Under the pieces are notes generated by a model, which worked only from the letters and a program-made list of their open reading frames with translations, searched no databases and had not been told where the DNA came from. From contig NZ_CP020538.1 in the NCBI RefSeq assembly GCF_002080435.1, forward strand, positions 2,723,501 through 2,787,500: DNA of 64,000 bases, written 5' to 3'. The number at the start of each line of letters is the position of its first letter. The first letter of the stretch is position 1. Made by a program: the position numbers and the translations under genes. This DNA is from Sphingobium herbicidovorans (GTDB lineage Bacteria > Pseudomonadota > Alphaproteobacteria > Sphingomonadales > Sphingomonadaceae). Of the stretch, positions 4,656 through 38,749 are shown piece by piece.

Positions 4656-5531
4656 ATGGCCGCGCGCGCATATTGGCAGGGGCAGATCAGGCTGGCGCTG
4701 GTGTCGATACCGGTCGAAATCTATGCCGCGACCAAGTCGGGCGCTCAGATCTCATTTCACCAAATTCACGAGCCGAGCGGCAAGCGCGTGCGGTATGAAA
4801 AAACTGTGCCGGGCCTTGGTCCTGTAAAGCCCGAGGATATCGTCAAAGGTTTTGAGGTGAGCAAGGGCGACTATGTTCTCCTCCAGCCTGAAGAGATCGA
4901 GGCGGTCAAGCTGGAGAGCAAAAAGACGCTTGAGCTGACGCAGTTCGTCGATGCCGACGAAATCGACGTCCTGTATTATGAGCGACCCTATTATGTCGTC
5001 CCCGCTGACGACCTGGCCGAAGAAGCATTTGTCGTTTTGCGGGAAGCTCTGCGCCGCGCGAAGAAGGTCGGGCTTGGTCAGCTTGCCATGCGCGGCCGCG
5101 AATATATCGTCTCGCTCAAGCCGTGCGGGCGCGGCATGGTGCTGGAAACGCTCCGCTACGCTGACGAGGTCAACCGGGCCCAATCCTACTTCCGCGAAAT
5201 TGAGGATGTTAAGCCGGACCCGGAGTTGCTGGACCTCGCCGAGGCGTTGATCGAGAAGAAGACCGCGCCGTTCAAGCCCGACAGTTTCCACGACCGATAT
5301 GTCGATGCGCTGGAAAGGCTGATCGAAAAGAAGAAGAAGGCGAAGGGCCGCCGGATCATCGAGGATGAGGGCGATGCGCCCGTCAAACGAAGCGGCAATG
5401 TCATCGACCTTATGGCCGCGCTCAAAAAGTCGGTCGATAGTGGTCAGAAAACGCCCGCCAGGAATGCTGCGAAAAAACCTGCGGCCCGGCGAGCGACCCC
5501 AAGCAAGGCTCCCGCGCGTAAGCGAGCCTGA
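4656..5531 (+). CDS. ku: Non-homologous end-joining protein Ku
   Basis: This 291-residue protein begins 'ARAYWQGQIRLALVSIPVEIY' and continues 'ISFHQIHEPSGKRVRYEKTVPG', the conserved bacterial Ku core. The DNA-encircling beta-barrel region spans about residues 10-250 ('YYERPYYVVPADDLAEEAFVVLREAL', 'GMVLETLRYADEV'). A Lys/Arg/Ala-rich tail ('KKPAARRATPSKAPARKRA', last 30 residues) is typical of Ku extensions that bind DNA or LigD. It binds double-strand break ends as a homodimer and recruits LigD. It sits 2 bp before ligD, with a strong AAGGAGGA site at 4640. Confidence 0.97.
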   Translation: MAARAYWQGQIRLALVSIPVEIYAATKSGAQISFHQIHEPSGKRVRYEKTVPGLGPVKPEDIVKGFEVSKGDYVLLQPEEIEAVKLESKKTLELTQFVDADEIDVLYYERPYYVVPADDLAEEAFVVLREALRRAKKVGLGQLAMRGREYIVSLKPCGRGMVLETLRYADEVNRAQSYFREIEDVKPDPELLDLAEALIEKKTAPFKPDSFHDRYVDALERLIEKKKKAKGRRIIEDEGDAPVKRSGNVIDLMAALKKSVDSGQKTPARNAAKKPAARRATPSKAPARKRA

Positions 5532-34015: not shown

Positions 34016-34695
34016 TGGCTGACGCAGTTCATATCCCGGACGAGGCCGAGACCCGCGCGCGCTGGGGCAATTTTGCCTGGACGGCGGAGAATGCCGAACA
34101 GGCGAAGAAGGTCATCGCCCGCTATCCCGCCGGTCGCCAGCAGTCGGCGGTGATGCCGCTGCTCGATCTCGCCCAGCGTCAGGTGGGAGCCGAAACGCAG
34201 ACCAATGGCTGGCTGCCCGTGCCGGTGATGGAATATATCGCCGACCAGCTCGAAATGCCATACATGCGGGTTTACGAGGTCGCGACCTTCTATACCATGT
34301 ACAACCTCGCGCCGGTCGGCCGCTACCATGTGCAGGTTTGCGGCACGACGCCCTGCATGCTGCGCGGTTCGGACGATGTCTTTTCGGCGTGCAAGAACAA
34401 GGGTCTGGTGAAGGGCGGCACGACGCCGGATGGCCTGTTCACGCTGACCGAAGTCGAGTGCCTGGGTGCGTGCGCGAATGCGCCGATGGTCCAGATCAAC
34501 GACGATAATTATGAAGACCTGACCTATGACAGCATGAGCGCGATCCTCGACGATCTCGCCGCTGGCAAGCAGCCCAAGATCGGGCCGCAGATCGAGCGTC
34601 AGACGAGCTGCCCGGAGGGTGGCCCGACCACGCTGACGGAAATGGTTTCCGAGAATCATGACTATAGGGGCCAATGGAAAGAGGGAGCGCGGTAA
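34015..34695 (+). CDS. nuoE: NADH-quinone oxidoreductase subunit E
   Basis: This 226-residue protein (24-kDa family) has the four Cys of the N1a [2Fe-2S] cluster in '[10 protein letters not shown]' and '[17 protein letters not shown]'. The N-terminal helical bundle ('[22 protein letters not shown]', '[22 protein letters not shown]') matches. It joins NuoF in the NADH dehydrogenase module. The last 50 residues ('[19 protein letters not shown]' and on) are a less conserved tail. Stop overlaps the nuoF ATG. Confidence 0.95.
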
Positions 34696-36011
34696 TGAGC
34701 GACGTCATCGCGCCGCTGGCCGACAAGGACCGCATCTTCACCAACGTCTATGGCTTCCAGGATTGGGGCATCGACGCGGCGATGAAGCGCGGCGACTGGG
34801 ACAATACCAAGGCGCTGCTGGAGATCGGCCAAGACGAAATCATCGAGCGGATCAAGGCTTCGGGCCTGCGCGGCCGTGGCGGCGCTGGCTTCCCGACCGG
34901 CATGAAGTGGAGCTTCATGCCCAAGGAAAGCAAGGACGGCCGTCCGAGATTCCTGGTCATCAACGCCGACGAATCCGAGCCGGGTTCGTGCAAGGACCGC
35001 GAGATCATCCGCCACGATCCGCACAAGCTGATCGAGGGTGCGCTGGTTGCGGGCTTCGCGATGCGGGCGCGCGCGGCGTACATCTATATTCGCGGCGAGT
35101 TCATCTATGAGGCGAAGGTGCTCTTCGCCGCCGTGGAGCAGGCCTATGAAAAGGGCTTCCTGGGCAAGAATGCCTGCGGTTCGGGCTATGATTTCGATGT
35201 GTTCGTCCATCGCGGTGCGGGCGCTTATATTTGCGGCGAGGAAACCGCGCAGATCGAAAGCCTGGAGGGCAAGAAGGGCCAGCCGCGCCTGAAGCCGCCT
35301 TTCCCGGCAGGCGCGGGTCTTTATGGCTGCCCGACCACGGTCAACAATGTGGAATCGATCGCGGTTTCGCCGACGATCCTGCGGCGTGGGTCCGAATGGT
35401 TCTCCAGCTTCGGGCGGGAGAATAACAAGGGCACCAAGCTGTTCCAGATCAGCGGCCATGTGAACAAGCCCTGCGTCGTCGAGGAATCGATGGGCATCAG
35501 CTTCAAGGAGCTGATCGACCGGCATTGCGGCGGCATTCGCGGCGGCTGGGACAATCTGCTCGCGGTGATCCCCGGCGGGTCGTCGGTGCCGCTGGTTCCT
35601 GCGGCGCAGATCATGGACGCGCCGATGGACTTTGATGGCCTCAAGGCGCTGGGGTCCGGCCTTGGCACCGCGGCCGTCATCGTTATGGACAAATCCACCG
35701 ACATCGTCCGCGCGATCAGCCGTCTTTCCTACTTCTACAAGCATGAGAGCTGCGGCCAGTGCACGCCTTGCCGTGAAGGCACCGGCTGGATGTGGCGGGT
35801 GATGGAACGGCTGCGCTCTGGTGAGGCGGACATCGGCGAGATCGACATGCTGCATCAGGTGACAAAGCAGGTCGAAGGCCACACCATCTGCGCGCTCGGC
35901 GACGCGGCGGCCTGGCCGATCCAGGGCCTGATCCGGCATTTCCGGCCCGAGATCGAGCGGCGGATCAACGAGAATAAGGGTGGCGCCCCCGTCATGGAGG
36001 CAGCGGAGTGA
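34695..36011 (+). CDS. nuoF: NADH-quinone oxidoreductase subunit F
   Basis: This 438-residue protein starts at the ATG at 34695. '[20 protein letters not shown]' is the NADH-binding Gly-rich loop, '[15 protein letters not shown]' binds FMN, and '[19 protein letters not shown]' with a later Cys in '[13 protein letters not shown]' ligates cluster N3. It accepts hydride from NADH. Length is normal. Its stop TGA overlaps a GTG that starts the inserted gene at 36008, rather than nuoG as expected. Confidence 0.96.
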
Positions 36012-36750
36012 GGCCAGCGATCGTCGTCTTGTGGTGCCTGGTTGCGTTGGTGATTTTCCCGCCAGTTCAAGCGCGGGCGCACGATTCGGCTGATGAGGTT
36101 ACAAAATTGAGTTCCGAAGCGGCGATGGTCGCAGCTTGGGAGTTTGCCCGCTGTTCAGTTAAACGCAGCCGGGACGACGTGCGTACTATAATTGATCCCA
36201 AATTCGGTACGACAGTTTGGAGCGAACAAGACGAACAGATACGCTTGAAGCGGATGTGGAAACTGGCGGGTAAAAATGCTAGCTGCATGCGGCCGGGTGA
36301 CTCGCTGAAGGCTCCTCCCAGGTTATTTTTTGATATGCTGGGGGGGCGATGTTTCTGGACAAGCATCGGGACAGTGGCCTGCCCGATTATTCTAACATTC
36401 CGCCTCTGTTTTCAACAGACTCAGTGAAAGAAGCTAAGGTCGGACGGCAACGGATTGGCATCGCGCTCCGTCTTTTTGCGGAGTGCGTATTTCGGCTGAA
36501 CCCCGGAGGCGTTAGAGCGCTCCTACAGTCCCGTCCTTTTTCGAAAGGTGAAGGCAACAGCCTAAGTGAGCTCCAGCCCGCTATGGGAACTTGTGTCCCC
36601 GCCGAAGAGGGTGCGCAGTTGAAGCTGTCAAAAATTACGCTTCGCCAGTATTTGTCGATGGCAGCTTATCTTGTTGATGAAGCTTACGATTTGTCAAAGC
36701 AGAATAAAACTTCAGAAATGACACGGGAACAAGGGCGTCTTTATGCCTAA
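36008..36750 (+). pseudogene. Inserted secreted-protein gene between nuoF and nuoG, broken by an apparent frameshift
   Basis: The first frame (GTG 36008 to 36427) begins with a signal peptide ('[24 protein letters not shown]'). The second (36334 to 36750, +1 shift) continues to overlap nuoG. Joining at the G7 tract (36340-36346), with one G added or two removed, restores a protein of about 247 residues. The two halves then repeat one another: 'FARCSVKRSRDDVRTII' with 'FAECVFRLNPGGVRALL', and the rejoined 'RLFFDMLGGAMFLDK' with 'TLRQYLSMAAYLVDE'. Each half carries two Cys. Its composition is AT-richer than nuoF or nuoG. It is coupled to both by overlap (4 bp, 8 bp). No known function. Confidence 0.75.
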
Positions 36751-38749
36751 AGTCAAAGTAGACGGCGTAGAACTGGAAGTCCCGGCGGGCGCGACGGTTC
36801 TGCAGGCTTGCGAGATGGCGGGGAAGGAAATTCCGCGCTTCTGCTATCATGAGCGGCTGAGCATCGCGGGCAATTGCCGTATGTGCCTGGTCGAGGTGAA
36901 GCCTGGACCGCCTAAGCCGCAGGCGAGCTGCGCGCTGCCGGCTGCCGAAAATCAGGAAATCTTCACGCAGACCGAAATGGTGAAGAAGGCGCGCGAAGGG
37001 GTGATGGAGTTCCTGCTCATCAACCACCCGCTCGACTGCCCGATCTGCGACCAGGGCGGCGAATGCGATTTGCAGGACCAGTCGGTCGCCTACGGCAAGG
37101 GTTCGAGCCGCTTTGACGAGAATAAGCGCGCCGTCACCGAGAAATATATGGGTCCGATCGTCAAGACGGTCATGACCCGCTGCATCCAGTGCACCCGCTG
37201 CGTACGCTTTGCCGAGGAAGTCGCGGGCGTGCCGGAAATCGGCGCCATCTATCGCGGCGAAGATATGCAGATCACCACCTATCTCGAACATGCCGCGAAG
37301 AGCGAGCTGTCGGGCAATGTGGTTGACCTGTGCCCGGTGGGCGCACTGACGTCCAAGCCCTATGCGTTTGAAGCGCGTCCGTGGGAGTTGCGCAAGACTC
37401 CGGCGATCGACGTTATGGACGCGGTGGGCACCAATATTCGGCTCGACAGCCGGGGCCGTCAGGTGCTGCGCGCGGTGCCGCGCATCAACGACGATGTGAA
37501 TGAAGAGTGGGCGAGCGACAAGACCCGGCACAATGTCGATGGTCTGGTGCGCAAGCGGCTCGACAAGCCCTATGTCCGCAAGGATGGCAAGCTGGTCCCC
37601 GCGACATGGAACGAGGCTTTCGCAGCCATCGCGGCGGTAAAGCATGGCGGATCGGTCGCGGCGCTGGCTGGCGACCTGCTTGACTGCGAAACCATGTTCG
37701 CCGGCAAGGCGCTGGTCGAAAAGCTGGGCGGCACGATGCTGGAAGGGCGTCAGACCGGCCTGGCCTATGATGTGTCGAGCCTGTCGGCGGTGAATTTCAA
37801 CACGACGCTGAATGGCATTGAGACGGCGGACGCGATCGTGCTGGTCGGCACCAACCTGCGCTGGGAAGCGCCGCTGGTGAACACCCGTATCCGCAAGGCG
37901 ATCAAGAAGGGCGCGAAGGTTTTCGCCATCGGGCCGCAGGTTGACCTGACTTACAAGGTGGAGTGGCTGGGCAATGATGCCTCGCTGCTGGCGAAGCTGC
38001 CGCAAGCGGTGGTCGATGCGTTCGGCAAGGCTGCTCGCCCGGCGATGATCGTCGGTGGCGGCGTGCTGGCGAAGGACGGCGCACACGGCGACACGCTGGC
38101 GCTGGTCGAGACGCTGGGCCTCGTGAAAGAGGGCTGGAACGGCTATAACGTCCTGCACTTCGCGGCGGCGCGCATGGGCGGGCTGATGTTGGGTTATGCG
38201 ATGCAGGGCGGGATCAAGGCGGTGGCGGCGGCCAGCCCCAAGCTGCTCTTTTCGCTGGGCGCGGACGAGGTCGATTATGCGGCGTTCGACGACAGCTTCA
38301 AGGTCTATATCGGCCATCATGGCGACAAGGGCGCGCATGCGGCGGACGTGATCCTGCCGGGTGCAAGCTATGCCGAGAAGGCGGGCACCTATGTCAATCT
38401 GGAAGGCCGGGTGCAGCGGGGCGAAAAGGCCGTGTTCGCGCCCGGCGACGCGCGGGAGGACTGGTCCATCCTGCGCGCTTTGTCGGAAGTGATGGGCGCA
38501 ACCCTGCCGTTCGACAGCTTCGAGGCGCTTCGGGCCGAGATGGCGAAGGCGGTTCCGGCGCTGGGCGTCGAGGGGCTGGCCGATTATGGCTGGTCGATCC
38601 CCAAGCTGCCGACCGGCGCGAGCGGCGAATTGGGTTCGCCGATCAAGGATTTTTACCTTACCAACGCAATCTGCCGCGCCAGCCCGACGATGCAGCAATG
38701 CTCGGCTGAACTGATCCATGGCGTGACCTTCGCGGAGGCCGCAGAGTGA
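36743..38749 (+). CDS. nuoG: NADH-quinone oxidoreductase subunit G
   Basis: This 668-residue protein is of the short alphaproteobacterial type. An N-terminal ferredoxin domain has '[19 protein letters not shown]' and a Cys in '[14 protein letters not shown]' (N1b). '[15 protein letters not shown]' and '[10 protein letters not shown]...[20 protein letters not shown]' carry the [4Fe-4S] clusters N4 and N5. The rest is a molybdopterin-oxidoreductase-like domain with no cofactor. Start ATG 36743 lies inside the inserted gene's last codons. Stop overlaps nuoH. Confidence 0.95.

Follow-up and report, generated by a model that had tools for sequence, protein, structure and literature searches.

The junction between nuoF and nuoG in Sphingobium herbicidovorans raises the question of why a respiratory operon should carry an additional reading frame at this position, and why that frame should be broken. 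The window, a stretch of 64,000 nucleotides containing this part of the nuo operon, was analyzed together with the corresponding junctions of related genomes. The relevant features are as follows:

34674 to 36011, plus strand: nuoF, whose stop codon TGA (36009-36011) shares bases with the GTG at which the next gene starts (GTGA)
36008 to 36427, plus strand: cassette gene, first frame, 139 aa, with a hydrophobic N-terminus and most of repeat 1
36008 to 36079, plus strand: signal-peptide-like start, with an AxA-type site after a hydrophobic stretch, assigned by a simple hydrophobicity rule
36340 to 36346, plus strand: G7 tract, site of the frame change, where relatives have a Gly-Ala motif (LGGAVF in P0009)
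36334 to 36750, plus strand: cassette gene, second frame, with the end of repeat 1, a linker, repeat 2 (about 36445-36702) and the C-terminus
36743 to 38749, plus strand: nuoG, with its ATG at 36743

Between the two overlapping frames, the reading shifts by one base at the seven G residues, and the stop codon of the second frame lies 8 bp inside nuoG. An ATG-started open reading frame of 133 aa (36349-36750) is contained within the second frame. The last 27 or so codons of the first frame lie 3' of the G tract and have no match in relatives; apart from the break at the tract, no lesion is visible in either frame. The GC content of the insert is 52.8%, compared with 63.4% for nuoF and 63.7% for nuoG; of 633 stretches of equal size in the window, 4 were as low. 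No second copy was found in the same genome when the second frame was searched against it at E < 0.5. The preliminary description of this DNA had reported two frames meeting at G7 between nuoF and nuoG, coupled in sequence to both neighbors (GTGA on the nuoF side and the 8-bp overlap on the nuoG side), with an exported-looking start and a higher AT content than the flanking genes; each of these features is present, the start being recognized by the simple rule given above.

The search for an intact version, suggested at the same time, was successful. P0004 (231 aa) was found with the second frame as a query and showed 56% identity over 136 positions, covering the whole piece; the first frame showed 40% identity to P0004 over 107 positions, the last dozen or so of which lie past the break. 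A profile search added P0008 and P0009, with 244 aa each. All three proteins (231-244 aa), of which P0004 and P0008 come from ENA and P0009 from 'lgn', on contigs of at most 4.8 kb, are whole, cross the break point in one frame and align with both pieces. At the break point, P0009 reads VLGGAVFVDKY. The pairing of the two frames is therefore not due to chance. Furthermore, the window frames matched the profile of the junction proteins separately, with E-values of 3.6e-8 for the first and 4.4e-20 for the second. Judging from these alignments, the two window frames are one gene.

The second frame was used to search 61 genomes, and six other Sphingobium genomes had matches lying exactly between nuoF and nuoG, of which two were weak (E 0.05 and 0.06); the Sphingobium genomes named are S. 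fontiphilum, S. amiense, S. cyanobacteriorum HBC34, Sphingobium sp. 66-54, S. abikonense NBRC 16140 and Sphingobium sp. SYK-6. The C-terminus of NuoF was matched in 93 of 94 Sphingobium genomes, and 95 junction loci were read in the 94 genomes. The plain nuoF-nuoG junction that had been sought in relatives was common: 58 loci were plain, 35 contained an insert, and 2 were not scorable (L125, at a contig end, and L126, which has no nuoG). The inserts were sorted by eye and by shared cysteines into 21 that encode the two-repeat protein (20 clear and one, L080, doubtful) and 14 others. The start codon is a GTG or ATG that overlaps the nuoF stop in 18 of the 21, follows it immediately in one and lies further on in two, and in most Sphingobium members the gene ends at or near the nuoG start codon. 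The GC content of the insert was below that of its own nuoG in all 21 cases, with a mean difference of 7.3 points. Copies of the family were also observed away from nuo in five Sphingobium genomes (L134, L135, L136, L138 and L140), four of which have a plain junction.

Beyond the genus, we sampled 149 Sphingomonadaceae genomes from 96 genera, 140 of which had both anchors on one contig; in G222 and G137, nuoF and nuoG lie on different contigs. The gaps between nuoF and nuoG, which were derived from the coordinates of the matches and still contain a few residues from the NuoF tail, were at most 60 bp in 49 genomes, 61-150 bp in 7, 151-450 bp in 21, 451-1000 bp in 40 and more than 1000 bp in 23, with a maximum of 3.9 kb; thus, 84 of the 140 exceeded 150 bp. 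Eighty of these 84 gaps were read in this set, and G000, G028 and G072 (analyzed separately) and G139 fall outside it. The family profile was built from the Sphingobium proteins and P0004, and the 80 gaps are therefore independent of it. An open reading frame matching the profile (E < 1e-3, calculated for the small set of gap reading frames) was present in 52 of the 80 gaps and absent from 28. These 69 family members had a median length of 237 aa, and 68 of them contained at least four cysteines. A single copy was found in 39 genomes, two copies in 10, three in 2 and four in 1. The preliminary description had spoken of a gene wedged into the operon, and the occupation of the same junction in 52 of the 80 gaps read is at odds with a one-off insertion.

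When the profile was searched anywhere in the genome, matches were obtained in 162 of 397 Sphingomonadaceae genomes, representing 59 of 96 genera. Among 28 newly fetched best-match loci (L143-L170), an end of nuoF or nuoG lay within the locus in 25. As a control, 72 genomes were compared at two junctions of the operon, and a gap of more than 150 bp was present between nuoG and nuoH in 11 of 72, in contrast to 45 of 72 between nuoF and nuoG. One family member was located between the end of nuoG and the start of nuoH (G185:C1:2062789-2063376). Of 24 genomes belonging to seven other families of the order, 3 had more than 150 bp between nuoF and nuoG, and the profile had no match at E 1e-4. The small reading frames in the nuoF-nuoG gap of one locus from another family of the order (L300) resemble a DUF4160/DUF2442 pair.

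The proteins at this junction form an undescribed family of exported-looking, helical proteins with two repeats of about 100 residues, each carrying two cysteines. The four cysteines were invariant in all 19 aligned members and may form disulfides. A signal-peptide-like N-terminus was recognized by the simple rule in 77 of 88 members. Comparison of repeat 1 with repeat 2, profile against profile and with the row L080 dropped beforehand, gave a probability of 98.7 and an E-value of 1.6e-16, while the probability was at most 0.8 in all 20 column-shuffled controls; the internal duplication that had been proposed for the window protein was thus borne out on its relatives. L080 and, in the family set, G224 had no BLAST neighbor among 90 members. 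AlphaFold2 models of the SYK-6 protein (pLDDT 81.5) and P0009 (pLDDT 80.9), made from 12 sequences, are all-helical and contain two repeats with the same helix order; confidence is low for the first 30-odd residues. By alignment to these modeled relatives, the window protein is predicted to have two helical repeats with two cysteines each. The window gene shares the position between nuoF and nuoG, the matches of both halves to intact members and the signal-like N-terminus with the rest of the family. Pfam, NCBIfam, PHROGs and the PDB contained no convincing match covering the family, and fold searches revealed nothing convincing. No immunity family was present among the Pfam and NCBIfam matches of 19 members at E-values up to 0.1, and PADLOC returned one weak match to AbiEi (E 0.0097) in one of the 19.

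Pairs of closely related loci revealed how the cassettes relate to their flanks. In L119 (G073) and L120 (G072, SYK-6), nuoG is 97.9% identical over 1500 bp (dS 0.08), the NuoG proteins are 99.2% identical, and the flanks share 98.7% identity over 300 bp on each side; the cassettes show 41.8% protein identity with saturated dS. The opposite pattern, a cassette less diverged than its flanks, was found in two pairs. In L042/L044, 21 of 696 positions differed in the cassette and 53 of 703 in nuoG (Fisher p 1.8e-4; for the comparison with nuoF, 3.3e-3), and in L038/L050, 30 of 729 differed in the cassette and 58 of 770 in nuoG (p 5.8e-3 against nuoG and 9.7e-4 against nuoF). For L044/L056 and L042/L056, the comparison with nuoG was not significant (p 0.44 and 0.34), and only that with nuoF was. 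The dN/dS of the four close cassette pairs ranged from 0.015 to 0.23, which indicates that the proteins are maintained. On a genus tree built from the NuoF and NuoG ends, which is short and weakly supported, the presence of the family changed 17 times, with strong branches forcing 3 of these changes, and family presence was not clustered on this tree beyond shuffles (114 of 500 as low). The pairwise comparisons indicate that cassettes are swapped within Sphingobium, including outright replacement as read from the L119/L120 alignment. The earlier suggestion of an acquired gene thus stands insofar as the cassette is mobile, with alleles exchanged between species (L119/L120, L042/L044 and L038/L050); the part that failed is the one-off insertion.

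Other genes were also observed in the gaps and, named by the look of their sequences, include aspartyl proteases, coiled coils of 76 aa and small membrane proteins, the first two of which recur in more than one genus. An aspartyl-protease-like reading frame of 126-136 aa lies at the junction in L088, L190 (G174), L192 (G157) and L230 (G144), from several genera. The 76-aa coiled-coil-like frame occurs in L054, L102, L180 (G207) and L214 (G210), again from several genera, and in L214 it is the end of a longer open frame. A membrane-protein-like frame of 122 aa was found in four Sphingobium genomes (L113, L115, L116 and L117), together with a family member in L113. The 3.9-kb gap of L250 (G164) contains a family member together with longer reading frames resembling a polysaccharide pyruvyl transferase and a nitroreductase.

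In the explanation that we favor, the nuoF-nuoG junction of Sphingomonadaceae would be an exchange site for accessory cassettes, with the two-repeat family as its commonest resident. The cassette would be made together with complex I, since in most Sphingobium members the gene begins within the nuoF stop and extends to the nuoG start or close to it, and its protein would then be exported. Replacement would probably rely on homologous recombination within nuoF and nuoG, the well-conserved flanks; one allele can give way to a very different allele, an unrelated gene or nothing. As the start overlaps the nuoF stop, the cassette could be exchanged with little change to either neighbor.

With regard to role, we tentatively suggest an envelope protein whose variety is favored, similar to immunity or phage-related proteins, for which the nuo operon would provide steady expression; this is one possibility among several, and the likeness is drawn because of the very different alleles, the tandem copies and the export. 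For periplasmic immunity proteins of the Rap1a/Tai-like type, a candidate class for the junction family, no match to a known immunity profile was found in Pfam or NCBIfam among the 19 members at E-values up to 0.1. A more specific version is rather more doubtful: a diversified, exported immunity- or defense-like repertoire housed in the complex I operon throughout a bacterial family, with nuoF and nuoG serving as recombination arms, the operon ensuring steady coupled expression and alleles being replaced in single events.

Alternatively, the family could serve complex I on the periplasmic side, as an accessory subunit or an assembly factor specific to the lineage. Its position within the nuo operon in 52 of the 80 gaps read across the bacterial family, its coupling in sequence at both ends and the conserved cysteines of an exported-looking protein would all fit such a role. 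However, the gene is not consistently retained with complex I among close relatives: 58 of the 95 Sphingobium junctions are plain, including those of tree neighbors of the window's genome, and some of these genomes have copies elsewhere. Unrelated genes occupy the same place, some family copies are located away from it, and a cassette partner of 42% identity lies beside NuoG of 99.2% identity. A structural role in complex I is disfavored, because many junctions lack the gene and its sequence does not follow that of NuoG, and we consider it unlikely.

The frame break in the window was evaluated against the remainder of the same assembly. We scanned 464 kb, consisting of 20 stretches of 20 kb and the window, with a rough measure of the coding frame. 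These sequences contained nine G7, six C7 and one C8 runs; of the 16 G or C runs of at least seven that were scored, the frame switches on one strand in 8 and does not switch in 5, and the strand changes in 3. The window gene accounts for one of the eight switches, separate evidence exists for four others, and the remaining three (L255:1018, L265:5620 and window:57407) were called from the rough frame score. The separate evidence includes three conserved genes that are each split at a G7/C7 tract: prephenate dehydrogenase TyrA (L267:11540-11546; pieces matching NF005694 at 4-153 and 151-304), undecaprenyl-diphosphatase UppP (L268:4341-4347; NF001393 at 1-140 and 136-264) and an RND permease (L260:417-423; NF033617 at 247-975 and 973-1007). 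In addition, L269 contains a duplicated gene (tracts at 5477 and 8617) whose copies differ only in the length of the C tract over the 201 bases compared, with eight C giving an open frame and seven C a broken one. Three of the 15 scored G7/C7 runs (L256, L270 and L271) lie in long open frames with the same phase on both sides; therefore, not every tract is affected. The one C8 run in the 464 kb was also counted among the unbroken tracts. As a control for the frame score, which is rough, 400 kb of SYK-6 was scored in the same way; 2 of its 12 runs switched frame, compared with 6 of 14 in the 400 kb of the window's own assembly (G000). This assembly seems to carry homopolymer-length errors, and a tract-length error is most likely the cause of the frame break in the window; it fits best because split tyrA and uppP genes are unlikely in a living strain.

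A genuine, recent pseudogene, in which the tract truly has seven G in the strain and the exported protein is lost, would be in keeping with the two frames being free of other visible lesions, as expected of a recent break, and with the frequency of junctions lacking the gene in the genus (58 of 95). Nevertheless, TyrA, UppP and the RND permease show the same kind of split at G7/C7 tracts of this assembly, and the twin gene of L269 varies in C-tract length, which makes this reading improbable. The preliminary description had suggested that the exported protein may be phase-variable through its G tract, whose slippage would act as the switch, and a homopolymer located exactly at the frame change in an exported-looking, variable protein is what such a switch would look like. 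We found no support for this idea and regard it as very improbable: G7 and C7 runs are not rare in this assembly, the tract falls in a motif kept by relatives, intact relatives exist, and a technical cause is documented by the split conserved genes and the C8/C7 twins of L269. A one-off recent acquisition peculiar to this strain and devoid of wider meaning, to which we give hardly any credence, would agree with the sources of the three closest relatives found (ENA for P0004 and P0008 and 'lgn' for P0009) and with tree neighbors that carry a plain junction or a different cassette, but it is refuted as a full account by the family's place at the junction in 52 of the 80 gaps.

Taken together, the explanation that we regard as probable is that the junction is an exchange site with an undescribed exported-looking family and that the window holds one of its cassettes, the break in which is probably an assembly error. 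In many Sphingomonadaceae, a core respiratory operon that is usually taken as fixed contains a variable slot, occupied for the most part by a single undescribed protein family, and the junction offers a naturally occurring setting in which the expression and exchange of accessory genes within core operons can be tested. Frame breaks at G or C tracts in this assembly should not be taken as biology without reads.

Hotspots of accessory genes between conserved core genes, with exchange of alleles, are a known phenomenon. The nuoF-nuoG junction resembles them in having very different contents between near-identical flanks and content transferred apart from those flanks. It differs in that the slot lies inside a core operon, is often exact to the overlapping start and stop codons and has one dominant, undescribed family. 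The nqo and nuo operons of Paracoccus and Rhodobacter contain unidentified reading frames (URFs), which are likewise extra genes between complex I genes in Alphaproteobacteria; in contrast to these URFs, the junction content described here varies between close relatives.

In type VI secretion system (T6SS) clusters, arrays of immunity genes are displaced by recombination (PMC5361080). The junction is similar in presenting tandem, divergent genes at a fixed place, but it is dissimilar in that no immunity family was found among the sequence matches and no convincing match among the folds. The supernumerary subunits PdNUMM, PdNUYM and PdN7BM of Paracoccus complex I were detected in the purified enzyme (PMC8115037). 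They are comparable as extra proteins linked to complex I in Alphaproteobacteria, whereas the junction family is linked to the complex by operon position only and many genomes lack it. As far as our search of the literature and databases goes, a slot within a coupled core operon that has its own dominant family is new.
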